Source: a virus
Virus record (IMG/VR): IMGVR_UViG_3300046328_000527
Location: 1 to 30,374 of that record
Strand: one strand, 5' to 3'
DNA length: 30,374 nucleotides
This document shows positions 1,397 through 22,199 of this stretch, piece after piece. The translations under genes were made by a program, and so were the position numbers. The notes beneath the pieces were generated by a model. That model had not been told where the DNA came from, made no database searches, and saw only the letters and a program-made list of their open reading frames with translations. Each line of letters starts with the position of its first letter. The first letter of the stretch is position 1.

Positions 1397-2062
1397 TTAT
1401 GCTACTGTATAGTATCCACTAAATCTTAATACTGAACCATCTGATAAATTTGACATAGTTAAATTATTTACTAAAGCACTGCTTGTGATAGTTTGTAAAT
1501 TTTTATTTCCTTCAGTATCAAATACTACTAATGCATATCTTCCAATTCCATTTGAACCTGTAAAATTTACAAGCGAAAGATAAGGAGTAAAGCAAGAGGT
1601 AGAAATTGAAGTAAAAAATGGAAAAGGTGGTAAAGTAATATTAAAACCTGATGTAGCAGTACCTTTAGAAGATATAATAATATGTGCACTATAAAAAACT
1701 TGATTAGCTATAACACTATAAAAACCCTCATTAATCGTATAGATAATTGTATTCGAATTTGTAGCTACAATAACAGGCGTATATGCAGTTTTTTGTATAA
1801 ATCTATTTATTGTATTTGTGCCATCATCAAAAGATAAACTATTTGCATAGATATTATTCCATGAATTTGTTGTATTTCCTAAATTATTAATTCTATCTGT
1901 TGAAGGTACTACAGACGATGCTGTTACTACAACATCCCCTGTTCCAGAAGGTGATAAAGTAAGATCAGTATTACTAGTCGTAGTAGAAATAGTAGATCCA
2001 GATAAATTTATTGCTGAAACTTGTAAATCTGAAACAGTATTATTAATTGAATTTTTTGTCAT
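1397..2062 (-). CDS. Fibre-like protein, array member 13 (paralogue trio)
   Basis: A 221-aa protein in two parts. The N-terminal ~95 residues carry the array signature (MTKNSINNTVSDLQV), a beta-strand repeat SNTDLTLSPSGTGDVVV, then DRINNLGNTTNSWNNIYANS. The last resembles the SWxxIY module found before chaperone or receptor-binding domains of phage fibres. The C-terminal ~120 residues are divergent, starting near SFDDGTNTINRFIQKTAYTPVI. The N-terminal part is almost identical to the two preceding genes at the DNA level, while the C-terminal domain differs. This is the usual pattern of receptor-binding proteins with a fixed attachment part and a variable tip. Function as a virion adhesin is inferred from composition and context; no enzyme motif is seen. 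Confidence 0.7.
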   Translation of the reverse strand: MTKNSINNTVSDLQVSAINLSGSTISTTTSNTDLTLSPSGTGDVVVTASSVVPSTDRINNLGNTTNSWNNIYANSLSFDDGTNTINRFIQKTAYTPVIVATNSNTIIYTINEGFYSVIANQVFYSAHIIISSKGTATSGFNITLPPFPFFTSISTSCFTPYLSLVNFTGSNGIGRYALVVFDTEGNKNLQTITSSALVNNLTMSNLSDGSVLRFSGYYTVA

Positions 2063-2079
2063 ATTTTATCCCTTTTATA

Positions 2080-2736
2080 TTATACCCAATAAAACCCATT
2101 TCCTGAAATATAAGTCCCATCTACAAAATTTGCATCTGTTAAATTTATTGGAGTAGAATTATCTCTAATTCCAATAATATCTGCTGAACCTGAAGTAATC
2201 GATCCTAAATCTAAAACTGTGTAATTATATGTTATTCCAGTACTCAATTGTAAAATTAAATTACATGTAGGATTAACTGCTGAAGATGTAATTGAGGTTG
2301 GTAAAGAAATTCTTGCTTGCCCAGTAGAACTACCTTTTGTAACTAATAAAAAAATAAAATTATAAATAATAATATCATTCAATCTAATAAATTGTCCTGT
2401 TTGGTTAAGATAAGTTATACCAGTAGTACCGCCCCCAAAAGAAATTGAAGGTGTATAGCTAGACTGTCCTGTATAAGTACTTAATGTATTTATACCATCA
2501 TCAAAACTGATGCCATTTGTATAAATATTATTCCATGAATTTGTTGCACTTCCTAAATTATCATTTCTATCTGTTGTTGGTACTATAGACGATGCTGTTA
2601 CTACAACATCCCCTGTTCCAGAAGGTGATAAAGTAAGATCAGTATTACTAGTCGTAGTAGAAATAGTAGATCCAGATAAATTTATTGCTGAAACTTGTAA
2701 GTCTGATGCACTATTATTTATACTATTTTTTGTCAT
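2080..2736 (-). CDS. Fibre-like protein, array member 12 (paralogue trio)
   Basis: A 218-aa sister of its two neighbours. Plus-strand bases 2625-2702 repeat those at 1950-2027 without a difference I could find. The C-terminal domain begins with SSYTPSISFGGGTTGITYL and continues as a Gly/Ser/Thr-rich beta structure (VTKGSSTGQARISLPTS). This matches a widespread phage fibre tip with the layout YTPxxxxGG...G.Y...xxxxxFxxxxxxxSKGSSTGxxxIxLP. The tip start is shared at DNA level with the 2755-3408 gene, whereas the N-terminal module is closer to the 1397-2062 gene, so this gene looks like a recombinant of the two. It starts 18 nt after the stop of its upstream neighbour. Confidence 0.7.
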   Translation of the reverse strand: MTKNSINNSASDLQVSAINLSGSTISTTTSNTDLTLSPSGTGDVVVTASSIVPTTDRNDNLGSATNSWNNIYTNGISFDDGINTLSTYTGQSSYTPSISFGGGTTGITYLNQTGQFIRLNDIIIYNFIFLLVTKGSSTGQARISLPTSITSSAVNPTCNLILQLSTGITYNYTVLDLGSITSGSADIIGIRDNSTPINLTDANFVDGTYISGNGFYWV

Positions 2737-2754
2737 ACTTTTTCCTTTTTAAAT

Positions 2755-3408
2755 TTATATATAATAAAATGCAGAACCAAAAAAAGTTGATGTATTTGTA
2801 CATGAAGTATTAGTAACAGTACTTATACCACTAGGACTACAAAACCTAATTACTGCACGACTTGAACCAATATTAACCATATCAATATATACAAATGTAT
2901 TTGCTGCAAGTACAGTATTTTCAAATCTTATAGTAAATAAAGCATTATTAAATGAAGTAACTGAGCTAAAAGGAAGTGTTATTTCTAAATTTCCTGTAGA
3001 TGATCCTTTTGAAGTAAGCCTTACAGCAAAACTAAAAAAAATTAAATTATTAATTTTAAAGTATTCGCCTTCTCTTAGTAGATAAGTTATACCAGTAGTA
3101 CCGCCCCCAAAAGAAATTGAAGGTGTATAACTAGACTGCCCTATATATGAAGTTAACGAATTTGTGCCATCATCAAAAGATAAACTATTTGCATAGATAT
3201 TATTCCATGAATTTGTTGTATTTCCTAAATTATCAATTCTATCCGTTGTTGGTATTATAGATGATGCTGTTACAGATACATTCCCTGATCCAGAAGGTGA
3301 TAATATCAAGTCTGTATCAGTAGTCGTTGTAGAAATAGTGGATCCAGACAAATTTATTGCTGAAACTTGTAAATCTGAAGCAATATTGTTTATTGAATTT
3401 TTTGTCAT
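2755..3408 (-). CDS. Fibre-like protein, array member 11 (paralogue trio)
   Basis: A 217-aa protein with the same N-terminal module (MTKNSINNIASDLQV, then DRIDNLGNTTNSWNNIYANS) and a tip starting SSYTPSISFGGGTTGITYL, as in the next gene, before diverging. Bases 3177-3232 in the SWNNIY region match 1831-1886 in the 1397-2062 gene. Each member of the trio therefore shares a different block with a different sister. It is the first gene after a strong hairpin at 3437-3456, which may separate it from the upstream transcript. Small beta-rich proteins of this layout usually trimerise in phage tails; trimerisation here is inferred. Confidence 0.7.
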   Translation of the reverse strand: MTKNSINNIASDLQVSAINLSGSTISTTTTDTDLILSPSGSGNVSVTASSIIPTTDRIDNLGNTTNSWNNIYANSLSFDDGTNSLTSYIGQSSYTPSISFGGGTTGITYLLREGEYFKINNLIFFSFAVRLTSKGSSTGNLEITLPFSSVTSFNNALFTIRFENTVLAANTFVYIDMVNIGSSRAVIRFCSPSGISTVTNTSCTNTSTFFGSAFYYI

Positions 3409-3436
3409 ATTTTCCTAACTCTTTTTTTATATATAC

Positions 3437-3456
3437 CAGGGAGATTTCTCTCCCTG
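3437..3456 (-). terminator. GAAA-tetraloop hairpin between fibre genes (possible terminator or processing site)
   Basis: On the minus strand this reads as an 8-bp perfect stem (CAGGGAGA / TCTCCCTG) closed by a GAAA tetraloop. It lies in the only sizeable gap of the fibre array (3409-3469). The base run after it on the minus strand is A-rich rather than U-rich, so it is not a classical intrinsic terminator in that direction. Transcript stabilisation, RNase processing or attenuation are alternatives. A second hairpin of the same design occurs at 19802-19819. Confidence 0.45.
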
Positions 3457-3469
3457 ATATAATTTTATA

Positions 3470-4048
3470 TTATACTACTGTAATATTTCCTTGCTGTACA
3501 GAACATAGCCAGGTTGTTGATGCTCCACCCACAAAGCAGATAAAACGAAGCCAGTCACCTCTAGCAGTTGATGCTAGTGAACCTCCAGTCCCGACAGTTG
3601 TTGAAGTATTTCCTATGACTATTGATTGGCCTGCCGATTGGAGTACTGAAAATCCAAAAGATGCATTTCCAGCAATCAGTTCAAATTCGTCACCTACTGC
3701 AGCTGACGCAGGTAATGTAAATGCTAAAACTTGAGAACCATTATTTGCAATGTATCCATTTTCTACAACAACTGTTTGAGTTGTTCCAGTAAGAACAGTC
3801 CAAGGAAAAGATCCTGCTTCATCATCTTCCCATGTAATCACTCCAGCTCCATCAGTTTTCATGACTTGACCGGCTGTACCATCAGCTACAGGGAATGAAT
3901 ATGCTCCATAAAAGCCAATTGTTCCAGTACCATTTGGTACAAAAAGAATATTTCCGTTTGTGTCTGATGATGAAATTGTATTGACAGCAAGTCCTAGGTT
4001 ACCTATAGCCATTGAACTAGCTGTGTTATTAATATTGTTAATTGTCAT
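3470..4048 (-). CDS. Fibre-like protein, array member 10, with tip related to a long fibre
   Basis: A 192-aa protein. Its N-terminus (MTINNINNTASSMAIGNL) is a divergent form of the array module, followed by PVADGTAGQVMKTDGAGVITWEDD, a linker type common in phage tail fibres. Its last ~95 residues (TLPASAAVGDEFELIAGN, GQSIVIGNTSTTVGTGGSL, SVQQGNITVV) align with the C-terminus of the 334-aa fibre at 9055-10059 (SLPTSAAVGDTYQVYAMN, GQSIRIGTTVTTVTSGTL, SVKQGNLTST). The two genes thus share a tip domain but not an N-terminus, which points to domain shuffling within the array. It is followed by the 3437-3456 hairpin. Confidence 0.7.
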   Translation of the reverse strand: MTINNINNTASSMAIGNLGLAVNTISSSDTNGNILFVPNGTGTIGFYGAYSFPVADGTAGQVMKTDGAGVITWEDDEAGSFPWTVLTGTTQTVVVENGYIANNGSQVLAFTLPASAAVGDEFELIAGNASFGFSVLQSAGQSIVIGNTSTTVGTGGSLASTARGDWLRFICFVGGASTTWLCSVQQGNITVV

Positions 4049-4049
4049 G

Positions 4050-4343
4050 TTACTCTCCGTTTGTTAATCTTGTTTTTTTATCTGCATAATCTTTACAATC
4101 AAAGACTATTTCGCAGAACTTTTCTTCATCCAAAGGAATAGTTCTTTTTCCTAATTCCTTTAACTTAGGTTCCCACTCTTGCCTAATTCTTTTTACACAG
4201 CCTTGATACTTTTCCATAAGGATAAACTTTAGTCTTCTAGCAATATCCTCTTCAAATATATCTGAAGAAATGTCATGCATAAGTATTTTTACCTGTGTTT
4301 GTGATAATGTTAAAATTACCTTATTATCTATTTTAATTTCCAT
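4050..4343 (-). CDS. Small charged protein A, paralogue of 6224-6520 (candidate fibre assembly factor)
   Basis: A 97-aa protein of unknown family. I chose the internal ATG at 4343 because CAGGAGAAAA lies directly before it and because the protein then starts MEIKIDNKVILTLSQ, matching the sister's MEIKLDDEVILKLSE. An upstream in-frame start at 4382 would overlap the previous gene and lacks this support. Both proteins share HDISSD/NDISSD, DIARRLKFI/DIARRLKYI, EWxPKxKELGK and KFCExVF-C. They are soluble, helical and charged, quite unlike the beta-rich fibres around them. Interleaving with fibre genes suggests a fibre chaperone or a regulator of the array, but no known chaperone motif is visible. 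Confidence 0.75.
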   Translation of the reverse strand: MEIKIDNKVILTLSQTQVKILMHDISSDIFEEDIARRLKFILMEKYQGCVKRIRQEWEPKLKELGKRTIPLDEEKFCEIVFDCKDYADKKTRLTNGE

Positions 4344-4360
4344 TTTTCTCCTGTTTTCTC

Positions 4361-4984
4361 CTAAGACATTAGCTGGCCACAAAAAAATGTTACTAATTCT
4401 GATCCACCAACAATATCAGCTGTATTTCCTGCTCCGTTGCTAATTTGTAAATATACCTGAGCTGTATCACCTGCTGTCATATTAATATTTGAACAAAGAT
4501 TTATTGTTCCATTAGTCCCTGCTGCTGAATTATTGTAAGGATTAAATCTTCTATCTATAGGTATACTATTTATATTTATTTTTAAACGACAAGTAGTCAT
4601 AGCAGAAGATAACCCTGTATAGGTTACATTTGCAATTAATAAGTATCTACCTGTAATAGGTGCTGTAAAAGTATCAGTAGAAAAGTAACCACCAATGTTA
4701 TAAACAGTTGTATTAAAAGGAATTAAGTAATCAGCAGCATTACCTGTTATATCTGTTAACGTTGCATTTGCATAAACCAAAAAACCAGGTTGTAAAGGAT
4801 TTGTTTTATATCCAGTTGATGTAATATTAAAAATAGTATTTGTACCGTTTGTAAAAGTAATGTCATCAGTACTATTACTTTTTAAAACCATACCAGCAGA
4901 ACTAGAAGCAATGGTGCCTCCACTAATCGATAAGCTATCGACTGTCAATCCTTCAGAAGTTCTATTGATTGAATTTTGTTCCAT
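4361..4984 (-). CDS. C1q-like fibre head protein, array member 9
   Basis: A 207-aa protein representative of the C1q-like group. Residues 1-60 hold the shared attachment module (NSINRTSEGLTVDSLSISG, then TNTIFNITSTG). From about residue 66 the pattern fits a C1q/TNF-like jelly roll: PGFLVYAN (first strand), FTAPITGRYLL at 106-116 (equivalent to the F-x-x-P-x-x-G-x-Y-x-F signature), MTAGDTAQVYLQ at 169-180 (the L-x-x-GD-x-V strand) and a terminal TFFCGQLM (equivalent to the F-S-G-F-L ending). C1q domains form compact trimers and are used as binding tips in several phage fibres. Receptor binding is inferred. Confidence 0.75.
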   Translation of the reverse strand: MEQNSINRTSEGLTVDSLSISGGTIASSSAGMVLKSNSTDDITFTNGTNTIFNITSTGYKTNPLQPGFLVYANATLTDITGNAADYLIPFNTTVYNIGGYFSTDTFTAPITGRYLLIANVTYTGLSSAMTTCRLKININSIPIDRRFNPYNNSAAGTNGTINLCSNINMTAGDTAQVYLQISNGAGNTADIVGGSELVTFFCGQLMS

Positions 4985-4990
4985 AGTTTC

Positions 4991-5584
4991 CTAATAAATT
5001 AAATGCCCTGAAAAATAGGTTGAATAAGTAGAAGCTGTTCCTTGTAAATCTGCAGTATTAGATGCACCACCATATATAATAAAAGTTATATATGCTGTAT
5101 CTGCTGAGTCCATATCTGTAACACAAGAAAAATTTATTGATCCACTAGTTCCTGCTGCACTAGATAACCATGGGTTATTAAATACTTGGTAAGCTTGATT
5201 TGATGTATTTAATTTTAAAGATAACCCAACCATAAGAGACGTAAGTCCAGTAATAGGAGCTGTAAATGTGTTGCTTGCATAGTTATTAGTTATATCGTAC
5301 TTTTCTGTATTATATCCTACGGTCACCTCAACTCCTGCACCTGTTACGTTACCAACAGCTGCATTAGCATAAGCAAAAAAAGAAGGTTGATTTGGCATAG
5401 ATACTGCACCTGAAGAAAAAAAATCAACATAAGTAGATCCACCTACTTGTAATTTTAACTCATTTGTGCCATCTGTTGCTAAAATTAAATCACCAGTAAC
5501 TGCTTGAATTTCATTATCCGTCAGCATCAAGTTATCTAAATCTAAGTCAGTTGCAATTTTATTTATTCTATTTTGTTGTGCCAT
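4991..5584 (-). CDS. C1q-like fibre head protein, array member 8
   Basis: A 197-aa member, the shortest of the C1q group. Its N-terminal module is modified (NRINKIATDLDLDNLMLTDNEI) and the middle reads LILATDGTNELKLQVGGSTYVDF. The head shows PSFFAYANAAVGNVTGAGVEV, FTAPITGLTSLMVGLSLK, MDSADTAYITFIIYGGA and a final STYFSGHLIY, close to the canonical C1q ending. The G-x-Y position of the central signature is G-L-T here, so that aromatic residue is missing. Only 6 nt separate it from the next gene and the ribosome site overlaps the stop of the preceding one, consistent with coupled translation. Confidence 0.72.
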   Translation of the reverse strand: MAQQNRINKIATDLDLDNLMLTDNEIQAVTGDLILATDGTNELKLQVGGSTYVDFFSSGAVSMPNQPSFFAYANAAVGNVTGAGVEVTVGYNTEKYDITNNYASNTFTAPITGLTSLMVGLSLKLNTSNQAYQVFNNPWLSSAAGTSGSINFSCVTDMDSADTAYITFIIYGGASNTADLQGTASTYSTYFSGHLIY

Positions 5585-5590
5585 ATATTC

Positions 5591-6220
5591 CTAAGAAATC
5601 AATACTCCGTTAAAAAAAGTTGTAATAACTATTAAAAAACTTCTTAGATCTGCTGTCTTTGTTCCTCCTGATATGGAAATTTCCATTGAAGCTGTATCTC
5701 CAGATTCCATATCTGCTATTGCATTAAGCAAAATTGTACCTGTATTTGCTGTGGATGCTGCTTCAAGTGATAAAGGATTCCCATATTTAGTATATGTCCG
5801 ATTTGATGTTATCAGCTTTGTATATCCAGTTGTCATACCTGCGGAAAGTCCAAGAAAAGTATAGGAAAGTGAAAAATAATATTTTCCTGTGACAGGAGCA
5901 GTAAATGTTGGATCGGAAAAATTTCCTGCTGTATCAAATCGTTCAGCTGTCCAAGTAGGCGAAAGAGCTGTTCCGTCACCAGTTATATCAGTCTGGTTAG
6001 CTGTTCTTCTTGCAACAAACCCAGGATTATTATTAATGGTTTGTAATCCACTAGAATTTATTGTTAAAAGAGTAGTAGCCCCATTTTTCATAGTAATAGA
6101 ATTACTTGCATTACCATTAAGAATGAAATCTCCAGTAATACATGACATTGTATTAGTTCCAATAGACAAATTTCCTACTGTCAACCCATTAGAAGTATTA
6201 TTAATACTATTTTGCGGCAT
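5591..6220 (-). CDS. C1q-like fibre head protein, array member 7
   Basis: A 209-aa member with N-terminus NSINNTSNGLTVGNLSIGTNT and the repeat-like FILNGNASNSITMKNGATTLLTI. The head starts PGFVARRTANQTDITGDGT, contains FTAPVTGKYYFSLSYTFLGL, MESGDTASMEISISGGTKTADL and ends TTFFNGVLIS. Its start and end (ARRTANQTDITGDGT, SGGTKTADLR, FNGVLI) resemble the gene at 7772-8395 more than its immediate neighbours, so the C1q group has at least two subtypes that alternate in order. It follows the second small charged gene by 3 nt. Confidence 0.74.
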   Translation of the reverse strand: MPQNSINNTSNGLTVGNLSIGTNTMSCITGDFILNGNASNSITMKNGATTLLTINSSGLQTINNNPGFVARRTANQTDITGDGTALSPTWTAERFDTAGNFSDPTFTAPVTGKYYFSLSYTFLGLSAGMTTGYTKLITSNRTYTKYGNPLSLEAASTANTGTILLNAIADMESGDTASMEISISGGTKTADLRSFLIVITTFFNGVLIS

Positions 6221-6223
6221 TTA

Positions 6224-6520
6224 CTACTCTTGATTTTTTAACATTCTTTTTTTCTTACACTCATAACTTTCACAAGCAAATACCTCTTCACAAAACTTAG
6301 TATCATCTACTGGAATTGAATCTTTACCTAATTCTTTAAATTTTGGCATCCATTCTTTCTTAAGTCTTTTAAGGCATTCTGCATGTTTATGCATAATAAT
6401 ATACTTCAACCTTCTAGCAATGTCTGACTTTAATTCATCACTTGAAATATCATTCATTAAAGTTTTTAATTCAACTTCTGATAATTTTAATATTACTTCA
6501 TCGTCTAATTTAATTTCCAT
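6224..6520 (-). CDS. Small charged protein B, paralogue of 4050-4343
   Basis: A 98-aa protein starting MEIKLDDEVILKLSE after a GGTGAGGAAAA ribosome site. About half of its residues match protein A by eye, including LMNDISSD, DIARRLKYIIMHKH, LKRLKKEW, PKFKELGK and DTKFCEEVFACESYECKKKR. Three cysteines near the C-terminus (FCEEVFACESYEC) are partly shared with the sister. It lies between two C1q-like genes with 3-6 nt gaps. Retention of two diverged copies at comparable positions in the array argues for a function tied to sets of fibres, such as assembly, stoichiometry or regulation. The family is unknown to me. Confidence 0.75.
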   Translation of the reverse strand: MEIKLDDEVILKLSEVELKTLMNDISSDELKSDIARRLKYIIMHKHAECLKRLKKEWMPKFKELGKDSIPVDDTKFCEEVFACESYECKKKRMLKNQE

Positions 6521-6526
6521 TTTTCC

Positions 6527-7153
6527 TCACCCTAATAATTTTCCATAAAAATACGTTTCTAAATCACCACTACCATTTATATCAGCTGTATCACTAGCAC
6601 CATTAGAAATACGAAAAAATACTTGTGCAGTATCTCCTATATCCATATTACAGCTGAAATTTAAACTTATGCTTCCTAGTGCACCACCATTTGTCATTGC
6701 AAATGCATTGGCAAAAACCTCAAAAGTACTATTAGAAGTTACTACAGAAAGTCTACATGAGGTCATGGCAGCTGAGAGATTTGTAAACGTTACATTTGTT
6801 CCAAGCATATATTTTCCTGTAATTGGTGCTGTAAATAAATTAGAAGAACTAAAGTTATTACCAATATCAAATTCTTCTATATTAAAATTTACGACTACTT
6901 CAGTGCCACTACCTGTTACTGAAGTCACAGAAATATTGGCATAAGCTAAAAATGCTGGTTGTAAAGGTGTAGTAAATTGACCATTTGGAGTTATATTTAC
7001 TAATATATCTGTACCATCTGTAAATTGTATTTCATCACTATTTAATGTATCTAAAACAATTGTACCACTTGATGTTGTGATGGTGTTATTGTTGATTTGC
7101 AAAGTATCTATTTCAATGCTTGATGAGGTTTTATTAATGGAATTTTGTGTCAT
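6527..7153 (-). CDS. C1q-like fibre head protein, array member 6
   Basis: A 208-aa member. Its N-terminal module is NSINKTSSSIEIDTLQINNNTITT, followed by LDTLNSDEIQFTDGTDILVNITPNG. The head includes PAFLAYANISVTSVTGSGTEV, LFTAPITGKYMLGTNVTFTNL, MDIGDTAQVFFRISNGASDTADI and the ending ETYFYGKLLG. It closely resembles the 4361-4984 protein (AYAN, AMTSCRL, SNGA-NTADI/SDTADI), suggesting duplication across the small gene between them. Its start codon overlaps the stop of the preceding fibre gene by 4 nt (7150-7153), an arrangement typical of coupled translation. Confidence 0.74.
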   Translation of the reverse strand: MTQNSINKTSSSIEIDTLQINNNTITTSSGTIVLDTLNSDEIQFTDGTDILVNITPNGQFTTPLQPAFLAYANISVTSVTGSGTEVVVNFNIEEFDIGNNFSSSNLFTAPITGKYMLGTNVTFTNLSAAMTSCRLSVVTSNSTFEVFANAFAMTNGGALGSISLNFSCNMDIGDTAQVFFRISNGASDTADINGSGDLETYFYGKLLG

Positions 7154-7770
7154 GCGATTCTATGCCCACTAAAAAAGGTTCTTAATGTTGCAGCCCCCTG
7201 CATATCAGCTGTTGCCGTGCCACCGCTTACGGTTACTTCTATACTACAAACATCGGCTGCATCCATTTGTGTGATAATATTTGCATGAATAGAAGATTGG
7301 CTACCAACTGTAGAAATACCATATGCATTGGTAAAAGAATTGTATGTTTGATTAGAAGTGGTAAGATTTAATCTTAAACTTGTCATTCCTGCAGATAACC
7401 CATTTAAAACACAGGAACAAGAAAAATAATATAAACCAGTTACAGGTGCAATAAAATACTGATCATCGAAATGACCTCCAATATCGTATTTAGTTGTATC
7501 AAAATATACGACATAAGGACCTCCGCTACCAGTTACATTATCTTGTGTTACAGATGCATAGGATAGAAAACTAATTTGATAAGGATTTGTTAACTGACCA
7601 TTAGAAGTTAAATCAAATAACGTATTTGATGAGTTTTGAAAAAGAATAGCATCCATATTATCAGTAGATAAAATTAAATCAGTAGCAGAAGAAATAGTAT
7701 TTCCTGAAAAACTTATGTCATTAACTTGCAGCTGCTCTGAGATATTGTTAATTTTATTTTGTTCTGCCAT
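7150..7770 (-). CDS. C1q-like fibre head protein, array member 5
   Basis: A 206-aa member with N-terminus NKINNISEQLQVNDISFSGNT and ATDLILSTDNMDAILFQNSSN. The head shows ISFLSYASVTQDNVTGSGG, FIAPVTGLYYFSCSCVLNGL, MDAADVCSIEVTVSGGTATADM and a terminal RTFFSGHRIA. Two adjacent cysteines in the YYFSCSC strand are unusual within the group. It starts directly after the stop of the upstream gene (1-nt gap). Confidence 0.73.
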   Translation of the reverse strand: MAEQNKINNISEQLQVNDISFSGNTISSATDLILSTDNMDAILFQNSSNTLFDLTSNGQLTNPYQISFLSYASVTQDNVTGSGGPYVVYFDTTKYDIGGHFDDQYFIAPVTGLYYFSCSCVLNGLSAGMTSLRLNLTTSNQTYNSFTNAYGISTVGSQSSIHANIITQMDAADVCSIEVTVSGGTATADMQGAATLRTFFSGHRIA

Positions 7771-7771
7771 A

Positions 7772-8395
7772 TTATCCTAAGAGAACTCCGTTAAAGTATG
7801 AGGCTGTATTTATTGCAAAGTTTCTTAAGTCTGCTGTTTTTGTTCCTCCAGAAATAGATGATTCTATAAAAGCTGTATCACCTGCTGTCATTTGTGTAAT
7901 TACTGATAGCCGACATGTTGAAGAAAGTGTTCCTGAAAAATTATTAAAAGGATTCCAATACTTTAAAAAAGTTCTACTGGTTGTAACTATTTTTACATAG
8001 CCAGTAGTCATTGCAGAAGAAACGTTCAAATAGGTACATGAAGCACATAAAAAATAAATTCCAGTTACTGGTGCTGTAAATGTTGGATCAACATAATTGG
8101 TTCCAACATTAAAAAGATCTACATCTAGTGAGGGTGTGTAAACGGTTCCGTCACCAGTTACGTCTATTAATAAGTCTGTTCTTTTAGCTACAAAGCATGG
8201 TTGTAAAGGAATAGATTGATCTCCAGCATTAGACATTTCATAAAGAAGAGTAGCACCATCTTTGATTTGAATAGGATTAGTACCATCTGTTTTTATAACC
8301 AAATTTCCAGCAGTAGAAGAAATAGCATTATTTTGTATTAATAAATTGTCAACTGTAAGCCCATCAGAAATTTCATTAATACTATTTATTGTCAT
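7772..8395 (-). CDS. C1q-like fibre head protein, array member 4
   Basis: A 207-aa member. Its N-terminus is NSINEISDGLTVDNLLIQNNA with LVIKTDGTNPIQIKDGATLLYEM. The head has PCFVAKRTDLLIDVTGDGTVY, FTAPVTGIYFLCASCTYLNV, MTAGDTAFIESSISGGTKTADLRNF and the ending ASYFNGVLLG. With the 5591-6220 gene it forms the subtype whose head starts with a basic KRT/RRT motif and ends FNGVL. It is separated from both neighbours by only 1-2 nt. Confidence 0.74.
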   Translation of the reverse strand: MTINSINEISDGLTVDNLLIQNNAISSTAGNLVIKTDGTNPIQIKDGATLLYEMSNAGDQSIPLQPCFVAKRTDLLIDVTGDGTVYTPSLDVDLFNVGTNYVDPTFTAPVTGIYFLCASCTYLNVSSAMTTGYVKIVTTSRTFLKYWNPFNNFSGTLSSTCRLSVITQMTAGDTAFIESSISGGTKTADLRNFAINTASYFNGVLLG

Positions 8396-8397
8396 TT

Positions 8398-9045
8398 TTA
8401 TCCTAAATAGTTTCCTTGAAAATATGTGCTTGGTGAAATAGTACTATTAATTAAATTTATGTCCTTTGCTCCACCAAAAGCATAATATACCGCCTTTACT
8501 GTGTCTGCTGTATCAAGTGTTACTAAACAAGATAATTGCAAACTAAATGATGTATTTGTCATATCACTATTTGAATGAAAATTTATATCTCCTAAAGTAG
8601 GCCTAGTACATTCAATATATAAAACTTCACTAGTACTAGTTCCTTTATTGATTCTATCACATACAACATAAAAAGAATATGTACCTGCAATAGGTGCTGT
8701 AAAAGTGTGTGTTGTAGTATTAAAACTTGATGAGTGATTAAATAATGTGCTATTAAAAGCAAGTGTATATGCACTTCCATCGCCGCTAATATTACTAAAA
8801 TTAACATTTGACTGTGCAAAAAAAGCTGGTTGTTTATTATTTTTTAAATAACCATCTGATGTTACTTGCGGACCAACATGATTTATTAAACTAGTTCCAT
8901 TATAAACTACAATTCCATTTGCAGAAGATGTAAATGAACTAGCATTTGTTCCACCATATGCAATTGGAGTTATACCTCCTGTAAAAACATCATTTTCAAA
9001 AATAACTGAACCTGCTGTTGTTACGTTTATTACGTTAACTGACAT
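8398..9045 (-). CDS. C1q-like fibre head protein with a different N-terminus, array member 3
   Basis: A 215-aa protein whose C-terminal ~150 residues fit the C1q-like head: PAFFAQSNVNFSNISGDGSAY, FTAPIAGTYSFYVVCDRI, LDTADTVKAVYYAFGGAKDINL and a terminal STYFQGNYLG. Unlike the next genes it lacks the NSINxTS module. It carries instead MSVNVINVTTAGSVIFEN and then GGITPIAYGGTNASSF, the AYGGTN motif common in phage tail-fibre shafts. It is the first C1q-type gene after the two long fibres, so it may be a hybrid joining a long-fibre type shaft to a C1q tip. Confidence 0.72.
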   Translation of the reverse strand: MSVNVINVTTAGSVIFENDVFTGGITPIAYGGTNASSFTSSANGIVVYNGTSLINHVGPQVTSDGYLKNNKQPAFFAQSNVNFSNISGDGSAYTLAFNSTLFNHSSSFNTTTHTFTAPIAGTYSFYVVCDRINKGTSTSEVLYIECTRPTLGDINFHSNSDMTNTSFSLQLSCLVTLDTADTVKAVYYAFGGAKDINLINSTISPSTYFQGNYLG

Positions 9046-9054
9046 AAATTGTCC

Positions 9055-10059
9055 TTATGTTGAGGTTAGATTACCTTGCTTAACAGAAGCAATGAACCCA
9101 GTATCAGCCACATTACAAATAATTTCAACAAAATCCCCGATATTCACTGAAGATAATGTTCCACTTGTAACGGTTGTTACTGTTGTTCCTATACGAATGC
9201 TTTGTCCTGTACCATAGTTGATTACAAATCCACCAGCATTCATGGCATATACTTGATATGTATCACCTACCGCAGCTGATGTAGGTAGACTTACAGTAAC
9301 TCCAGCACCTCTATTACAAAAAATACCCTCTCCAGCAGCAAGGGTTGCAGTTGCAGCAGTAACAACACTCCAAGTTAATCCTGCTCCACCGACTGCTTCT
9401 AAGTTAATACTTCCAGCACCTTGAGTAATAGTAACTGAACCACCAGTTGATGTTAGAGATGCAGCAACAGGGGTTGCACCAGTTGATCCTATAAGCAATT
9501 GACCATTTGTAAGAGGACCCACTTCATTTAAAGCACCACTTGCTCCATATACAGGAACTGCATGTTGTGTTGCATATTCAATAGTTACTTTTCCTGTTCC
9601 ATTGGGTTCAAGTCGTATATTAGTATTAGAAGTGGTACTTGTAATATAGTTTGTTGCAACATTGATTAAACCAAGTTGTGCTGAAGTAACGTTAATATTT
9701 GTTGCTAAGTTGATAGTAATAGTCCCAGGAGATGATGATCCTTCTGTACTAATATTAGAACCACCAGCAATAATAATATTTTCTAAAGTAGGAACAATTG
9801 CTCCACCAGTATCACCTTCTAGTGTCGCAAGATCACCTGTATTAGTAGAAGAAAGTGCCCAAATAGCTAGATTGCTAGAGTCAATACCCCCAAAGATATA
9901 TACTTGTCGTGCATCACCGTTTCTATAGATCCATAATTGTCCAACATCAAATGATTTGTCCGCAGTTGTAGGTACTCTTGTTTCATACAATGGAAAAGGA
10001 AAAACGTCAATTAGTGGTACATTTAATCCATATGCTTTATTTCTTGATGGCTTAGCCAT
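9055..10059 (-). CDS. Long tail-fibre-like protein, array member 2
   Basis: A 334-aa protein. Residues 1-~110 (MAKPSRNKAYGLNVPLIDVF, GQLWIYRNGDARQVYIFGG, LEGDTGGAIVPTLENIIIAG) are shared with the upstream gene and probably form the virion-anchoring end. The middle is Thr/Ser/Gly-rich beta repeat (TSNTNIRLEPNGTGKVTI, PLTNGQLLIGSTGATPVAAS), typical of fibre shafts. The C-terminal ~95 residues (SLPTSAAVGDTYQVYAMN to SVKQGNLTST) recur in the short fibre at 3470-4048. Host adhesion is inferred from this domain layout and from its place at the end of the late region. Confidence 0.75.
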   Translation of the reverse strand: MAKPSRNKAYGLNVPLIDVFPFPLYETRVPTTADKSFDVGQLWIYRNGDARQVYIFGGIDSSNLAIWALSSTNTGDLATLEGDTGGAIVPTLENIIIAGGSNISTEGSSSPGTITINLATNINVTSAQLGLINVATNYITSTTSNTNIRLEPNGTGKVTIEYATQHAVPVYGASGALNEVGPLTNGQLLIGSTGATPVAASLTSTGGSVTITQGAGSINLEAVGGAGLTWSVVTAATATLAAGEGIFCNRGAGVTVSLPTSAAVGDTYQVYAMNAGGFVINYGTGQSIRIGTTVTTVTSGTLSSVNIGDFVEIICNVADTGFIASVKQGNLTST

Positions 10060-10069
10060 TATTTATCTC

Positions 10070-11122
10070 CTAGTTTTGTTTGACTATAAAGTATTCAATT
10101 TGGGATTCATCACCAGTTTCAGTTGTTCCTGGACTTGCTGTTCTTCTGGCAGTAATTACAAAATTTACTCCAGTAGTAATTGTATAGATAAGTTCTCCCA
10201 ATGCTGAAGAACCTAACGGACTTTTTCTTTGAAGAAAAATTTTATGAGTAGAATTATCTATATTGGTATTTAAAATTGTAACTGTACCATTAACTAAAGT
10301 CGCTTGTCCAATAAAGTCAGTAGCAGCGCCACCATTCATTTCTAAACTAGTTCCAGCAGTTGTAAGGCTTAAATTTCCTGCAACACTAACAGTAGGAGCA
10401 GTTAATGTAAGCGATGTTCCAGATGTCATTGTAACATTACCAGTATTACTATTACCAAATATTAAAATATGATTTCCTGTTCCATTTCCTATACGTACAG
10501 TTTTTCCAACTGTTCCTGCACCTATTGTAATTGTACCAAGAGCATTTGTGATCCCGATATTTGTAACTTCACCTGTTAGATTAATTGTATCTGAAGCTAC
10601 AACAATTAAATCTCCAGCAGAACTATCTCTAATAGCAAAAATCTGACTACCTTGATCGTCTCCAAGAGTAACAATCACATCTTGATCTGTTGCTGCTGTA
10701 ATTCTTAAGTCAGTGCTAATAGGTGCAGTATATAGAGGAGAAGTTACAGATGTCGCTAAAGAAATTGCTGGATCTAAATTTATAGTAATTGTACCAGCTG
10801 TACCAACTGTTGTTAAGTTAGTACCACCAGCAAGTACAATTTCTTCATTAACAGGGGATATTTGACCACCACTATCACCTTGTAAAAATTCAATATCTCC
10901 TACACCTGATGCAGAAGTTTGCCAGATTGCATCACCTGCAGCTGTTAAACCACAAAAGTTATATACCGTTCTTGCATCTCCATTTTTATATACCCAAACT
11001 TGTCCTATTTCAAATGCAACATCACTAGTAGTAGGTGCAGAAGTTTTAAATATAGGAAAAGGAAATACATCTATCAGTGCTGTTGTTAGAGAGTATGCTT
11101 TATTTCTAGTAGGTTTGACCAT
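10070..11122 (-). CDS. Long tail-fibre-like protein, first gene of the fibre array
   Basis: A 350-aa protein if translation starts at the ATG at 11122. I prefer this over the ATG 12 nt upstream because GAGA lies just before it and because the protein then begins MVKPTRNKAYSLTTALIDVF, parallel to its sister's MAKPSRNKAYG. The N-terminal ~115 residues are homologous to the 9055-10059 protein (GQVWVYKNGDARTVYNFCG, LQGDSGGQISPVNEEIVLAG). The body is a beta-repeat shaft (GTITIGAGTVGKTVRIGNG). The C-terminus differs from the sister (ends DESQIEYFIVKQN) and is preceded by KIFLQRKSPLGSSALGELIY. It is the promoter-proximal gene of the array and diverges from the small regulator at 11261. Confidence 0.74.
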   Translation of the reverse strand: MVKPTRNKAYSLTTALIDVFPFPIFKTSAPTTSDVAFEIGQVWVYKNGDARTVYNFCGLTAAGDAIWQTSASGVGDIEFLQGDSGGQISPVNEEIVLAGGTNLTTVGTAGTITINLDPAISLATSVTSPLYTAPISTDLRITAATDQDVIVTLGDDQGSQIFAIRDSSAGDLIVVASDTINLTGEVTNIGITNALGTITIGAGTVGKTVRIGNGTGNHILIFGNSNTGNVTMTSGTSLTLTAPTVSVAGNLSLTTAGTSLEMNGGAATDFIGQATLVNGTVTILNTNIDNSTHKIFLQRKSPLGSSALGELIYTITTGVNFVITARRTASPGTTETGDESQIEYFIVKQN

Positions 11123-11205
11123 ATTTGATCTCATGTTTTTGTTAATTTAACCTTACTTTTACACATTAAATTTTATAATGCAAATAAAATCAAATATAAT
11201 GTATC

Positions 11206-11225
11206 ATTGTATATATAAAAATACA
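11206..11225 (+). promoter_or_regulatory. 20-bp element with inverted repeat TGTAT-N8-ATACA, upstream of regulator and fibre array
   Basis: The plus strand reads ATTGTATATATAAAAATACA, 36 nt before the TTG start of the ribbon-helix-helix gene and about 84 nt before the first fibre gene on the other strand. The same 20-mer with one change lies at 25930-25949 in reverse orientation. A second TTGTAT follows 22 bp later (11229-11234) and overlaps a TATAAT at 11232-11237. An operator for the adjacent regulator, or a phage promoter element, is inferred; the shared sequence itself is seen directly. Confidence 0.45.
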
Positions 11226-11260
11226 CATTTGTATAATTAATTTACCAAATAGGGATAACT

Positions 11261-11419
11261 TTGAAAAACAGATCTACACCAGAAAAAAAACTAAAAATAA
11301 CTGTAATAAGAACTACACAAGATGAGCATTCTTTTATAAAAATTAAAGCTGCGGAAAGAGGTATTTCTATATCTAGGATGGTCTTAGAGGCAATTAGATC
11401 GTATCTTAAGGATAGTTAG
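11261..11419 (+). CDS. Ribbon-helix-helix (Arc/MetJ-like) DNA-binding protein, 52 aa, TTG start
   Basis: A small plus-strand gene inside the leftward late region. The TTG start is preceded by AGGG with suitable spacing. The protein has a basic N-terminus and then the strand-helix-helix pattern of RHH regulators: KLKITVIRTT (DNA-contacting strand), QDEHSFIKIKAAERG (helix 1), ISISRMVLEAIRSYL (helix 2, with the G-x-S turn between them). The family binds DNA as tandem dimers at short repeated operators and often represses its own promoter. It is divergent from the fibre operon and convergent with the 1044-aa gene, so local control of the fibre array is a reasonable inference. Alternatives are a toxin-less antitoxin or a general late regulator. 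Confidence 0.72.
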   Translation: MKNRSTPEKKLKITVIRTTQDEHSFIKIKAAERGISISRMVLEAIRSYLKDS

Positions 11420-11444
11420 ACTAATTTTTTTTATTCCATTAGTA

Positions 11445-14400
11445 CTAAGTATATCTTAGATCTTCTATTTGCTTACGTCTTTTTGGAGCAATATTTTTTT
11501 GATTCATTTCACGGTAAACTCTTTCTCTTTCTACTGGTGTTTTAGCTTTTTTTAGTTTTGTAGCAAAGTCTTTATCTTCTTTTTCTTTTGAACGTGTATT
11601 TAAAAATTTAGTTATAGCAGTTAAAGTAGAAATTGATCCGCCTATTGCTCCTACTTTTGACCAACCGTTTCCAGAACCGCTAGATCTAGGAATACCAAGA
11701 GTAGAATTTGGTAAATTAATACCAAAAAACTTTTTAGCTGCTAACTTAATAGAAAAACCAAGAGCACTTCTTGCAAATCTATTTTTAAGAATACCTAGCC
11801 ATTCCAAGTAGTCTTTAAACGAGTCAAAAGCAGACTTAACTTCAGGTCCCACATTTTCTTTTCCATCAGTTTTTGACTGAGATTTTTGTGATTGTTCTTT
11901 TTCTATTGCTTTAATAATGAGCTCACCATGTCGATTAGTATCTTTTAAAATAGTTTTTAAATCATTCAGTGGTATAGAAGTAATATTGCTTGCTTCTTGT
12001 AAATCACCACTCTCTAGTGCTTTCATCAAGTCTTGCTGACCTTTAGTTGTAGAAAGTCTTTCCATAGCTGCTTTTTGAGTCTTAGATTCAATTAAATTTT
12101 GTACTTTGGATACTTTTACAAAATCCTTTTGAAAAGAGTCTATATCTTTTCTAAGATCTTTAAGATTTTGTTTAATTAATGCACCTTTTGCACCTTCAAG
12201 ATTAGCAAGAACATTCGCTTTATCCTTACGTAATTGTATTTTAGCATCATTAACTTTCATATTTTTTTCAAGAAGGTTCTTATAAGCAGTGAGATTGGCT
12301 ACTTCTTTTTGTGGTGCTGTAATTAAATTTTCTTCTACTTTTTTAAGCATATCCTGATATTTATCTTGATACGTTTGAAGTTGCTTAATACCAAAGTCAG
12401 TAGCTTTTTTAAGAGGAAGATCGCCTTTGTCAACAATTTTTGAAAGATCATTAATATACTTTTCATCTCTAGCTAAATCCTTAGATGTCTTTTCGCCTGA
12501 AACTGTGTTTGGCTTTAAAGCATCTTCTAGTAATTGTGCAACCCGCTTATCTGCTGCTGCTTCTGTTTCTGCTTGAGTAGCTCTTTTTTGACCTGTCCTT
12601 GCAATGTCTTGTGCTTGCTTAAGGTTGCTTTCAATGGTTTTTATTTGATTTTCTAACTCTGATTTTTTTATGTCATATGAATTTTTAAGTTTCTTAGAAA
12701 GTCCTTTTATTTCTAAATTACTTTTTATATCTTCTAAGTCAGACTTAACTATTTTTAAATCTTTCGCTAGTTGATCCGCTGTTTCTTTAGCTAGCTCTCT
12801 TTTAGCTTGCTCACGTGCGGTTAGGTTAGCTTCTTTGGTTGCTTTATCAAGTTCAAAATCAATGTATTCTTTTACAGGACGATTTGCAATATTTTGAGAA
12901 ATTTCTGATATACTTTGCGAATCCTGTTTGGGATTAAAAACAGATTTTTCAGTACCTTTAACTTTTTTTATTTCTTCTTTTACCGGAGCAGGAGTTTTTG
13001 GACTTCTAGCTTTAGTTACAGGCAACTGTCTTTCAACAATTTGTTGAGGCTGCACTTGAGGTTTAGACTGTACTTCTATGCCATTGGCTTGTTGTAAGGG
13101 CTGGCTCATTTGTACAGGGGCAACAGGTGCTTGAGCAGCTTGTTGTTGTGCTTGTTGTTGTCTTACTTGAGCAAGTGCTAATTGTCTTTGAGAAATTGGT
13201 TGTGATTGAGCTGGTTGTTGCTGAGCAGTATTAAAGACAAATTTATTGATATTATCTTTTACTTTCATCATGTCAGAAGGATTTACAGGATTTAATCCAC
13301 TTGCTTGCATATTTGTTGCTATATTTTGAGCGGCTTGTTGTGGAGAAACACCAGCTTTTTTTAAATTATTATAAAAAGATTTAAATTTATTAGTGCCTAT
13401 ATTAAATATTTTAAATCCAACAAGATTAGTAAGAGTATTTTGGTATTCTTCCATACTAGGAAACTCACCTTTAGCAGCTGATTTTGCTGTACTTACAATT
13501 CCAGCTTGTGTGCCTACTTCAATAAATTCTTTTGCAACTTTTCCACCTTTTAAATTAAGTAATTTTTGCACAGCTGGTACTTTATCAAGTTTAAATTTTG
13601 ATACTAGTCCTAAAAGAGCTCCTGCTCCTCCAGCTTGTCCAGTTCTTACACCAACCTCAGAAGCTGATTTTAAAAAGTCTCCAAAAGTTAAAGCACCACC
13701 TTTATCAGTATACTTCATGTACTCATCAAGAGATGACCGTAATAGCTCAGGAATTGCTTGAGATGCTGCCCCTCCACCAACTACACCACCAACAGTAGAA
13801 CCAACAGGACCTAATGGAGCTCCTAAAGCTGCACCAGCTGCGGAACCAATGCCAAATGAAGGTCCTATTATAGGCAGATCACCTGCAATTTGTCCTATAT
13901 CAAAAGCTAACTTTTTAGCCCAATTTTTACCTTTTATTTCTGAGTTTTTAATAAATTCTTCATATCCAATACCTTGAGAAGCAGCTCTAGCTTGAGCACC
14001 TATACTAGATTTAAAACCTTTTTTACCTGCTCCTAAAATAGAATCATTATCAGGAGTAGATTGACTGTTAGAAACAGTATTGCCAGTTAGTAATCCAAAA
14101 ATAGTAGAAGCAGCAGAAGGATTCTGTTTTAATGTATTCATTAAAGTAGAAATATTATCAACAGATTCTTTATTTGGTCCGGTAAATGATGCCTTAAATT
14201 TTTCAAAAGGTGATAAAGCGTTGAACTCTTCTTGCTGTGCTTGCTGTTCTTGTTGCTGTTGTTCTTGTCTATGTTGCGCTAAAGCTAGCTCAAATGCTTG
14301 TGCTGGAGTCGCAGATTGGCTATATATCTCTCTAAGTTGTTGTAATCGGTTTAAGTCTTCATCTTGATAAGACTGTATCTGCTCGTTACTTAATCCCCAG

Positions 14401-20444: not shown

Positions 20445-21098
20445 TTATGAATGGGTAGCTTGTAAGTTTACCATAAAGGAATCATTAAGAATCCTTGCAA
20501 CAAAGGGAAGTTGCCAGCCTACCGATCCTCTTTGATTCAACGGATCGGCTGATCCAGCAGAACCTAAAGGTTTCACATAAAACTCACCATTTTCTGAACC
20601 TAGATTTACAACACCATACGCTTCTTGAGCAAGAATAAAGTTATTATACACTGGTGTTGCAGCAGCGCTTACACTTCCAACAGTTGAGTAAGACCATCTA
20701 ACGTTAGATGTTGCTCCCCACTCTGATTCCATTACTGTAGCAAGTTCAGAACCTGGGTAGTTAGCAGTTGCTACAAAGTTAGTACATGCTTCAAGATCAT
20801 CTAATAGTTGAACTGGTAGAAGTCCCATAAAAGCAGGTCTAATTGGAGTTGTTGCAAACTGATCAGAACCTTTAATTACTCTAGAAAGCATTTTAGCATC
20901 GTTACTTAGTAGCAATTTAGTAGCTACATCGATATCTGCTTTTGTAATTTCTGTGGGTGTACCACCATTCACTCCATTTTGACATGCAAGTACAGATGAT
21001 GTACTAGCAAGAACATCTCTTACAACTTGGTCAACAGTTTGACCTAAGTTTTGTGCTAAAAGATCAGCTGATTCATTTAAGCATTCTGTTACTTTCGG
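20445..21098 (-). CDS. Major capsid protein, exon 2 (N4-gp56 family)
   Basis: The C-terminal ~217 residues of the capsid protein, starting near PKVTECLNESADLLAQNLG. This is the segment that in N4-gp56-type capsid proteins directly follows the TVEDPV motif. Further features are QTVDQVVRDVLASTSSV, the helix-loop DVATKLLLSNDAKMLSRVIK, the TPIRPAFMGLLPVQLLDDL domain junction and WSYSTVGSVSAAATPVYN. The reading frame stays open upstream into the intron, but that part (positions 21099-21803) matches intron and antisense endonuclease sequence, not capsid. The exact first codon depends on the 3' splice site. An end after CAG at 21099 gives this boundary; an end after CCG at 21096 would remove one residue. 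Spliced to exon 1 it gives about 323 aa. Confidence 0.85.
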   Translation of the reverse strand, partial: PKVTECLNESADLLAQNLGQTVDQVVRDVLASTSSVLACQNGVNGGTPTEITKADIDVATKLLLSNDAKMLSRVIKGSDQFATTPIRPAFMGLLPVQLLDDLEACTNFVATANYPGSELATVMESEWGATSNVRWSYSTVGSVSAAATPVYNNFILAQEAYGVVNLGSENGEFYVKPLGSAGSADPLNQRGSVGWQLPFVARILNDSFMVNLQATHS

Positions 21099-21881
21099 CT
21101 GAGCTTTGCCTACTGACCATATTTTTATGGCGGGGTGAGTTCTTCGACTCTCCCTCACTACCTTTCGTGTAGTGTTCAGACTATCGCATCCCTTTCGGGT
21201 TTCTTCACTTAGTCGTTTAGCGTGGTAAATATTGTTATCTTCGTTTATACTATATGTGTATTTAACGAAAGGATTTTTATGCCCAAACTCAAACCCTATG
21301 ATCTTTCTAAAGTCACACCATTGGATTTGGCTTATTTGGCTGGATTCATTGATGGTGAAGGCTGTTTTTTTATTGGCCATCACATTAATATTTCTAAATG
21401 TACTGGTAATAAATATCCCAATTACCATACATGCCTTAAAATCTCTAACAATTGTTTGGAAGTACTTGAATGGATTCTTAAAACATTTGGTGGACGCATT
21501 ACTAAATATAATAAAAATCGCATGAAAGATAGAAATTTTTTTACATACGAGATTTATTTTACTGGCAATTTGCTGACGGATATTTCCGAGTTGCTTTTGC
21601 CATATCTTAAAGTAAAACGGCTCCAAGCTGAAGTTATGTTGGAAATGCGCAAAACATTCTCTCGAACAGGAAGTTGTGGACCAGTTAAACAACCGGAACA
21701 TATTCTCGAAGTTCGAGGAAAACTCAGACATCAAATGACTCAACTTAACTCTAGATTTAAAAACCATATTTATACTAACCATTTTTAATTTACCTTCGCC
21801 CATGTTTCCTTATTAAGCAGCTTCCTGGTTAAAGTAGGGGTCCATGTCAATCAGAAGAAATTTATACAGGGCCTGTGTGTT
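21099..21881 (-). ncRNA. Group I intron in the major capsid gene, with an antisense endonuclease in its P6 loop
   Basis: Group I core elements read directly on the minus strand. P1: exon ACAGGGTT (21889-21882) pairs with the guide GGCCCTGT (21873-21866) through six Watson-Crick pairs and two U-G pairs, across loop AACACACA. This places the 5' splice site after the U at 21882. P6a: GGTAAAT (21794-21788) pairs with ATTTACC (21230-21224). P7: GACTA (21214-21210) pairs with TAGTC (21183-21179). P8 is CCCGAAAGGG (21199-21190) and P9 is CACTAC/GTAGTG (21174-21156). The GACTA...TAGTC pair with a P8 hairpin between them is the hallmark of the group I catalytic core. Intron length is about 783 nt. The 3' end must follow a G; CAG at 21099 or CCG at 21096 keep the frame. 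Group II is unlikely: there is no GTGYG start. Confidence 0.85.
21279..21788 (+). CDS. LAGLIDADG homing endonuclease, antisense inside the intron
   Basis: A 169-aa protein from the ATG at 21279, chosen because AAAGGA lies 5 nt before it; an upstream in-frame start (21222) would begin within intron core helices. The single LAGLIDADG motif (LAYLAGFIDGEGCF, residues 17-30) contains the catalytic acidic residue (D25 or E27). One motif per chain means the enzyme should work as a homodimer on a near-palindromic site. Downstream strands LEVLEWILKTFGGRITKYNK and a basic C-terminus are typical of the family. Its stop codon abuts the P6a stem, so the whole gene fits in the P6 loop without disturbing the ribozyme. 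A TATACT at 21246-21251 may be its -10 box. Coding on the strand opposite to intron and capsid is unusual. Confidence 0.88.
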   Translation: MPKLKPYDLSKVTPLDLAYLAGFIDGEGCFFIGHHINISKCTGNKYPNYHTCLKISNNCLEVLEWILKTFGGRITKYNKNRMKDRNFFTYEIYFTGNLLTDISELLLPYLKVKRLQAEVMLEMRKTFSRTGSCGPVKQPEHILEVRGKLRHQMTQLNSRFKNHIYTNHF

Positions 21882-22199
21882 AACCCTGTCCTCAACGGTA
21901 AGTTGCACTTCATTAGTAATCGTAATAAAATTTCCATAAAATGAAACTCTTGCTTTTAAGTCAGTTACAGAAAGTACTGTTCCTGGTGGAGTAATACCAT
22001 CTCGTAATGGAATAGGCACAGTATTTAGTTTTGCATAGCGTCTAAATACTACTGTATCACCACTTTTCTTTGGCAGTGTTCTTCTTTGAGCAAATTTTCC
22101 ATATACTAAGTATGGGAAAGCTGTCATAAGAAGCATTCTATCATAATACTCACGCACTGCTGGCGGAAGTATTGCTGTTGTTGTTAACGAACTTGACAT
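21882..22199 (-). CDS. Major capsid protein, exon 1 (N4-gp56 family)
   Basis: The N-terminal 106 residues of the capsid protein, from ATG at 22199 to the GTT codon that forms the 5' splice site. Features are AVREYYDRMLLMTAFPYLVY (helix), the KFAQRRTLPKKSGDTVVFRR strand region, PIPLRDGITPPGTVLSV and YGNFITITNEVQLTVEDRV. The last is the conserved E-loop-end motif that in homologues continues as xxTE. Unspliced reading continues 22 codons into the intron to a TAA at 21813, giving a 128-aa product that lacks most of the capsid fold. It lies 14 nt downstream of the scaffold gene. The intron interrupts a conserved motif, as expected for a homing site. Confidence 0.87.

Follow-up and report, generated by a model that had tools for sequence, protein, structure and literature searches.

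The major capsid gene on the minus strand of the window (the whole stretch of viral DNA analysed here, 30,374 nt) is almost certainly interrupted by a group I intron with definable splice sites, in whose P6 loop a LAGLIDADG homing endonuclease gene is encoded on the opposite strand. This backwards arrangement is the rule in a large clade of such endonucleases, and not the oddity of a single phage. In nearly all members of the clade the capsid-sense RNA opposite the endonuclease codons is free of stop codons, and as an account of the whole, a mobile intron with an antisense endonuclease, whose opposed frame may be kept open by run-through translation, is probably the best explanation of the sequences. 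What had been a remark on one mycobacteriophage thus becomes a widespread architecture, that of small group I introns missed by Rfam. The earlier note on this DNA, written from the letters alone, is partly supported: it had the anatomy right, overstated the uniqueness and did not mention the codon constraint.

A group I intron in the major capsid gene

Two minus-strand reading frames, 22199-21813 and the distal part of 21803-20445, match consecutive stretches (21-137 and 132-343) of the profile PHROG 1357, 'major head protein', and represent the two halves of the capsid protein; the window is a bacterial virus, a phage with a P22-like portal and a split major capsid gene. Exon 1 (21883-22199) comprises 105 codons plus 2 nt, and exon 2 (20445-21081) includes the stop codon. 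The reading frame of exon 1 runs on into the intron as far as a TAA at 21815-21813, inside the P5 loop, and where relatives have a long open exon-1 frame the corresponding stop mostly lies 21-36 nt past the core motif. Two relatives, L012 and L013, have an uninterrupted capsid gene that is 97% and 96% identical to the window in the exon 1 protein sequence and 92-98% identical in exon 2, and reads ...VEDRVLNES or ...VEDHVLNES across the insertion site. Because these intronless alleles fix the splice sites, the intron can be bounded at 21882-21082 on the minus strand (801 nt): exon 1 ends in GACAGGGU, the intron begins with U and ends in GUAACAGAAUG, and exon 2 begins with CUUAAAUGAA. Joining GACAGGGU to CUUAAAUGAA restores R-V-L-N-E, as in L012 and L013, and gives an open coding sequence of 954 nt for a capsid protein of 317 amino acids, where the earlier note had expected a spliced product of about 323 codons. 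Candidate 3' splice sites after CTCAG or CGAAAG were dropped, as the intronless relatives place the site immediately after AACAGAATG.

Three kinds of allele are found at this one site, namely intronless (L012, L013), with an ORF-less intron (L016) and with an endonuclease-bearing intron (L004-L010), and one further allele (L011/L017) retains remnants of the endonuclease gene. The same capsid gene is hit at many insertion sites, with intron ends alike. The capsid gene of L005 (minus strand) contains three introns of this family, two of them ORF-less and one with an antisense endonuclease, and its exon junctions restore the capsid protein. The capsid genes of L261 and L272 are still more crowded, with four to five intron 3' parts, recognised by the covariance model R1 described below, within about 3.5 kb on one strand. 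In L009, whose antisense endonuclease gene has an in-frame stop, a second and different intron-like insertion (about 3812-4748) lies near codon 36 of the same capsid gene and holds a sense ORF of 257 codons resembling a two-motif LAGLIDADG enzyme.

Structure and covariation of the ribozyme core

P1 is formed by exon ACAGGGU (21889-21883) and GCCCUGU (21872-21866) and closes with a U.G pair at the 5' splice site; this arrangement, and a G as the last intron base (G21082), recur in other introns of the family, for example those of L005. The 5' part of the core (21801-21860, placed by alignment and covariation) contains the 5' strand of P3 (21860-21854), P4 (21846-21843/21804-21801) and P5 (21838-21836/21810-21808). 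The 5' strand of P6/P6a (21786-21800) has its 3' partner at 21233-21219, with the endonuclease cassette in the loop between them, and P6 covaries (GGCG/CGCU as compared with GCGC/GCGU, GGGC/GCCU and GCGG/CCGU). The 3' part of the core (21116-21219) rests on alignment, covariation and a covariance model, and houses P7 (21214-21210/21183-21179), the 3' strand of P3 (21206-21200), P8 (21199-21190), P9 (21174-21156), P9.1 (21154-21133) and P9.2 (21131-21116). With P9.0 the set of helices P1, P3-P5, P6/P6a, P7, P8, P9, P9.1 and P9.2 is complete, all in the sense of the capsid gene as had been proposed for P1, P6a, P7, P8 and P9, and P7 is pseudoknotted across P3/P8 as in the conserved group I core.

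The covariation was assessed in an alignment of 34 ORF-less relatives, collected by a 3'-end motif search of viral contigs, together with the window core minus the endonuclease gene. From these 35 introns RNAalifold recovered P3, P4, P5, P6, P8, P9, P9.1 and P9.2, and 37 of the 46 pairs in that fold had changed on both sides; when P7 and P9.0 were added by hand, 37 of 48 pairs covaried two-sidedly and 98.2% of the pair cells were standard. This level was reached by none of 500 shuffles, and slid versions came nowhere near it either. R1, a covariance model of the 3' third of the intron built without the window, matched the window at 21189-21082 on the minus strand with 91.6 bits (E 4e-20).

The Rfam model Intron_gpI, from which the earlier note had anticipated a minus-strand match, gave none in the window or its sub-stretches, even at E 10, and none in the ORF-less relatives tested. 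A weak match (E 1.3e-4) was obtained in one member of the family, L165, where it lies on the strand of the R1 match and overlaps its start. Because the covariation evidence is direct, the Rfam miss is read as a limit of that model for this family. As far as sequence can tell, the group I intron in the capsid gene is established by the alleles, the splice sites and the compensatory changes, and the claim that a minus-strand intron splits this gene is upheld. In L165 itself (8564-9286 of a 128-kb phage contig) family introns are neighbours, one ORF-less and one with a long sense VSR-like ORF, and these are the only members of the family with a weak Intron_gpI match nearby.

The endonuclease gene

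The endonuclease gene (21279-21788, plus strand, 169 amino acids) lies wholly within the P6 loop, antisense to both intron and capsid gene, the P6/P6a strands flanking it just as had been claimed. Its product matches PF00961 (LAGLIDADG_1) at E 2.8e-7 and contains the motif LAYLAGFIDGEGCF, with its acidic residue, and the fold region of the family. The family profile matches the PDB structures of I-MsoI and I-CreI, which are single-motif LAGLIDADG homodimers. Those two enzymes come from algal chloroplast introns, unlike the window enzyme, whose target would be a phage capsid gene. Among relatives for which it could be calculated, pairwise dN/dS on the plus frame was 0.05-0.25, indicating purifying selection.

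The AAAGGA site (21268-21273) and the possible -10 box (TATACT, 21246-21251) pointed out in the earlier note are both present upstream, and both are enriched among 73 relatives: a Shine-Dalgarno (SD) sequence precedes the endonuclease start in 58 (7.6 expected), and a -10-like hexamer, matching TATAAT in at least five of six positions, in 63 (40.7 expected; maximum of 200 shuffles 49). A -35 box was looked for upstream of the window gene and none was recognised. The plus strand is without a gene of note from 995 to 21222, and a promoter of its own is accordingly likely for the endonuclease gene. Between the window and intronless L013 there are 15 differences in the 63 nt that adjoin the insertion site on its 5' side, as against 7 in the preceding 254 nt, a tract which is suggestive, though only suggestive, of co-conversion of flanking DNA at homing. 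The nearest PHROG to this endonuclease, phrog_5046, is labelled HNH endonuclease, as is gp14 of Mycobacterium phage LittleE; both carry a LAGLIDADG domain, and the labels look wrong.

An antisense clade and its precedents

To gauge how far this layout extends, the 80 best viral relatives of the endonuclease were scanned with R1. The model matched on the strand opposite the endonuclease, at most 300 nt upstream of the endonuclease match, in 78 of 79 testable relatives, and on the endonuclease strand in none of the 80; one of the two non-matching loci begins at a contig end. Sixty-six of the 78 also have the 5' core motif on that opposite strand, beyond the endonuclease. A single homology cluster takes in the downstream exons of 66 loci, which encode a capsid protein of the same kind. 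Most insertions lie close to codon 98, 106 or 123 of the window capsid. In a maximum-likelihood tree of the endonucleases the antisense clade holds together (98/95), and clades within it track the three insertion sites, with 3 changes as against 24.4 when labels are shuffled. Sense endonucleases do occur in the same intron family (L113, L125, L175 and L165), and those of L113, L125 and L175, which were inspected, extend through P7-P3-P8 to a UGA in P7. Unrelated two-motif endonucleases are also found antisense (L146, L178). P22-like podoviruses thus carry this intron family in their major capsid gene, inserted at several positions close together and with the endonuclease backwards; viral-metagenome annotation overlooks these introns and calls such capsid genes as two broken ORFs.

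The earlier note had held that intron endonucleases of phages are normally encoded on the intron strand. Reviews do describe phage group I introns with sense endonucleases and timed expression (PMC2988022, PMC3073962), but the generalisation does not extend to the present clade, nor to the one published phage precedent found in the literature searched, the bottom-strand LAGLIDADG gene gp14 in the intron of LittleE capsid gene gp13 (Pope et al. 2013, PMC3706429; JF937101). As in the window, a major capsid gene is interrupted by a group I-type intron of about 0.8 kb with the LAGLIDADG gene opposite the capsid strand, and for LittleE splicing was shown by RT-PCR and N-terminal protein sequencing (PMC3706429). 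A search of LittleE 7500-11500 with R1 gave no match, and membership in the same intron family was rejected. The LittleE intron has its own weak match to RF00028 (30.7 bits at 1359-1562); its endonuclease lies 3' of the matched core instead of in P6, belongs to LAGLIDADG_3, and is about 23% identical over 104 amino acids to that of the window. It was published as a single case, and the accessible part of that report describes no stop-free sense frame (PMC3706429). The literature searched, which had most subscription journals outside its reach, yielded no report of a widespread family of phage introns with antisense endonucleases, nor of a stop-free frame opposite a homing endonuclease gene.

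Other systems share single features. The note's statement that antisense homing genes are known from group I introns of nuclear rDNA holds good: His-Cys genes of this kind are found in Didymium S956-2 and D. squamulosum L2066 (PMC3679873, PMC9548176). They too lie antisense in a peripheral loop of the ribozyme and have their own transcript, but they differ in their nuclear rDNA host, their His-Cys box family, their spliceosomal introns and, for L2066, their position in P9 (PMC3679873, PMC9548176). Because the rDNA transcript is not translated, no constraint on the sense frame would be expected there. The T4 td intron with I-TevI resembles the window in having the endonuclease in the P6 loop of a group I intron in a phage protein gene, and the two share the need to keep translation and ribozyme folding apart; in td, however, the endonuclease is on the intron strand and overlaps P6a/P7, and the conflict is resolved through late promoters and sequestration of the ribosome site instead of opposite coding (PMC2988022, PMC3073962). 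Hidden HNH insertions of the ShiLan type in phage methylases likewise leave the host frame free of stops with the endonuclease in another frame, but there the frame is on the same strand, the enzyme is HNH, an intron was not found, and the open frame is read as part of the host protein (PMC11855218).

A stop-free frame opposite the endonuclease

The codons TTA, CTA and TCA are the complements of the stop codons. None occurs among the 20 leucine and 7 serine codons of the window endonuclease, whereas in 30 other window genes TTA and CTA make up 60% of leucine codons and TCA 30% of serine codons; the chance of finding none is about 9e-10. The three codons stand at 0.00 of leucine or serine codons in 71 of 76 antisense endonuclease loci, as against 0.26, 0.12 and 0.24 (TTA, CTA, TCA) in the capsid exons of the same loci. 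In the directly opposed frame of the capsid strand there are 0.0008 stops per codon, and in the other frames 0.063 and 0.105. Synonymous shuffles are uninformative on whether such openness could arise by chance, the avoided codons being simply absent, so codon usage was instead compared with background and with controls. To our knowledge, a frame kept open for run-through opposite an antisense gene would be a type of constraint not known before. Run-through translation of the loop on unspliced capsid mRNA is put forward tentatively as the possible cause, and three other explanations of the open frame have to be weighed against it.

In the window the opposed frame is part of a stop-free ORF of 452 codons (20445-21803, minus strand) that continues in register into exon 2. 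On the capsid strand the exon-1 TAA is followed by an SD sequence AAGGA (21811-21807) and then by the ATG (21803-21801). The start of the sense ORF is preceded by an SD sequence in 47 of 66 loci (20.9 expected), part of the signal being supplied by the conserved GAAGG of P6, and in L234, L258, L291 and L292 the exon-1 stop and the sense start nearly touch (TAATATG). Such a start and ribosome site in many loci, and openness over the whole of the endonuclease gene, are what a real overlapping gene would show, its protein being for example a maturase, an endonuclease inhibitor or a small membrane protein. This is nevertheless unlikely. Between distant pairs the sense proteins are no more similar than when the endonuclease codons are synonymously shuffled (z 0.2-0.4), four sense ORFs gave no match in a PHROG search, and the end of the frame varies freely, falling before P7 in 18 loci, in P7-P8 in 20, in P9 in 9 and, counting the window, beyond the 3' splice site in 19. 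A conserved sense protein was rejected on the first two grounds. Since, in addition, the synonymous divergence of the endonuclease gene is close to that of capsid exon 1, it is the openness of the frame that is selected, and not its product.

In the window and in 19 further loci the frame crosses the 3' splice site and stays in register with exon 2, which might also mean that unspliced mRNA yields a fusion of loop residues to the capsid C-terminus, as a minor virion or scaffold product. We regard this as decidedly improbable, for only 20 of 77 loci cross the splice site and only 39 of 77 are in register with exon 2 at all, and the other constrained loci end earlier, many of them where the conserved core supplies a UGA triplet. 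A point against run-through translation itself is that the sense frame extends into the ribozyme core or beyond in about two thirds of the constrained loci, which should hinder folding.

The avoidance coincides exactly with the endonuclease coding region, whose codons are those counted, and it could accordingly be a codon preference for translation of the endonuclease itself, through tRNA supply or foreign origin, with the opposite strand irrelevant. This is highly improbable on several counts. The avoided leucine and serine codons are exactly the stop complements, while other A-ending codons (ATA, ACA, GCA, CCA, GGA and CGA) are normal in the antisense endonucleases; a general strand or third-base skew was likewise rejected by the codon-usage analysis. 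All 57 homologues outside introns, from bacterial genomes, use TTA, CTA and TCA freely, none being without them, and the sense endonucleases of L113, L125 and L165 in the same intron family contain 14, 10 and 16 such codons. Antisense L109 has none, and opposite the unrelated two-motif antisense genes of L146 and L178 the sense ORF stays open except at the extreme end of the gene. Five antisense loci use the three codons freely and fall on the tree as three separate losses of stop avoidance (L265; L241 with L285; L242 with L246), so avoidance is not essential everywhere; no other open sense frame was found in any of the five, which are useful natural controls.

A model for maintenance of the open frame

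The following sequence of events can be proposed. The ribozyme core (P3-P9) would excise itself from capsid mRNA by two transesterifications, after U21883 and at the terminal G21082, restoring the 317-residue capsid protein, while the endonuclease would be transcribed from its own plus-strand signals. Opposite coding might, as the earlier note suggested, allow the endonuclease to be made early, and its mRNA might act as an antisense RNA on splicing. The I-MsoI/I-CreI-like enzyme, probably a homodimer, would cut intronless capsid alleles between VEDRV and LNE and so spread the intron in co-infections. The antisense layout spares the ribozyme core from endonuclease codons, which in the sense genes of L113, L125 and L175 run across P7-P3-P8. 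It also means that a very abundant late capsid mRNA contains some 500 nt of foreign RNA. Selection has kept one frame of this loop RNA free of stops, often with a ribosome site beside the end of exon-1 translation; on the run-through reading, ribosomes loading at or near the exon-1 stop would translate the complement of the endonuclease gene and thereby cover the loop of the capsid pre-mRNA. Translation itself would matter and its product would be irrelevant, so that only the absence of stops would count. Its purpose can only be guessed at: among other possibilities, it could guard against Rho-dependent termination or RNase attack, keep loop and core from mispairing, or stop the loop and the endonuclease mRNA from pairing with the core.

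That there is no self-splicing intron, the capsid gene being split or broken and the endonuclease a free-standing insertion, can be dismissed: the Rfam result would fit, but the complete core with compensatory changes, the exact splice sites, the ORF-less and intronless alleles and the many sites in one gene with identical ends do not.

The stop-free complementary frame makes testable an old question, how a nested gene on the wrong strand spares its host transcript, and run-through translation, if true, may hold generally for mobile genes that lie backwards within bacterial transcripts.

Elsewhere in the window (1397-9045, minus strand) there is a tandem array of about ten similar ORFs of around 200 codons (M..NSIN..S.L.V..L.....ISS..), which are probably repeated paralogues of a tail-fibre or receptor-binding protein with diverging C-termini.
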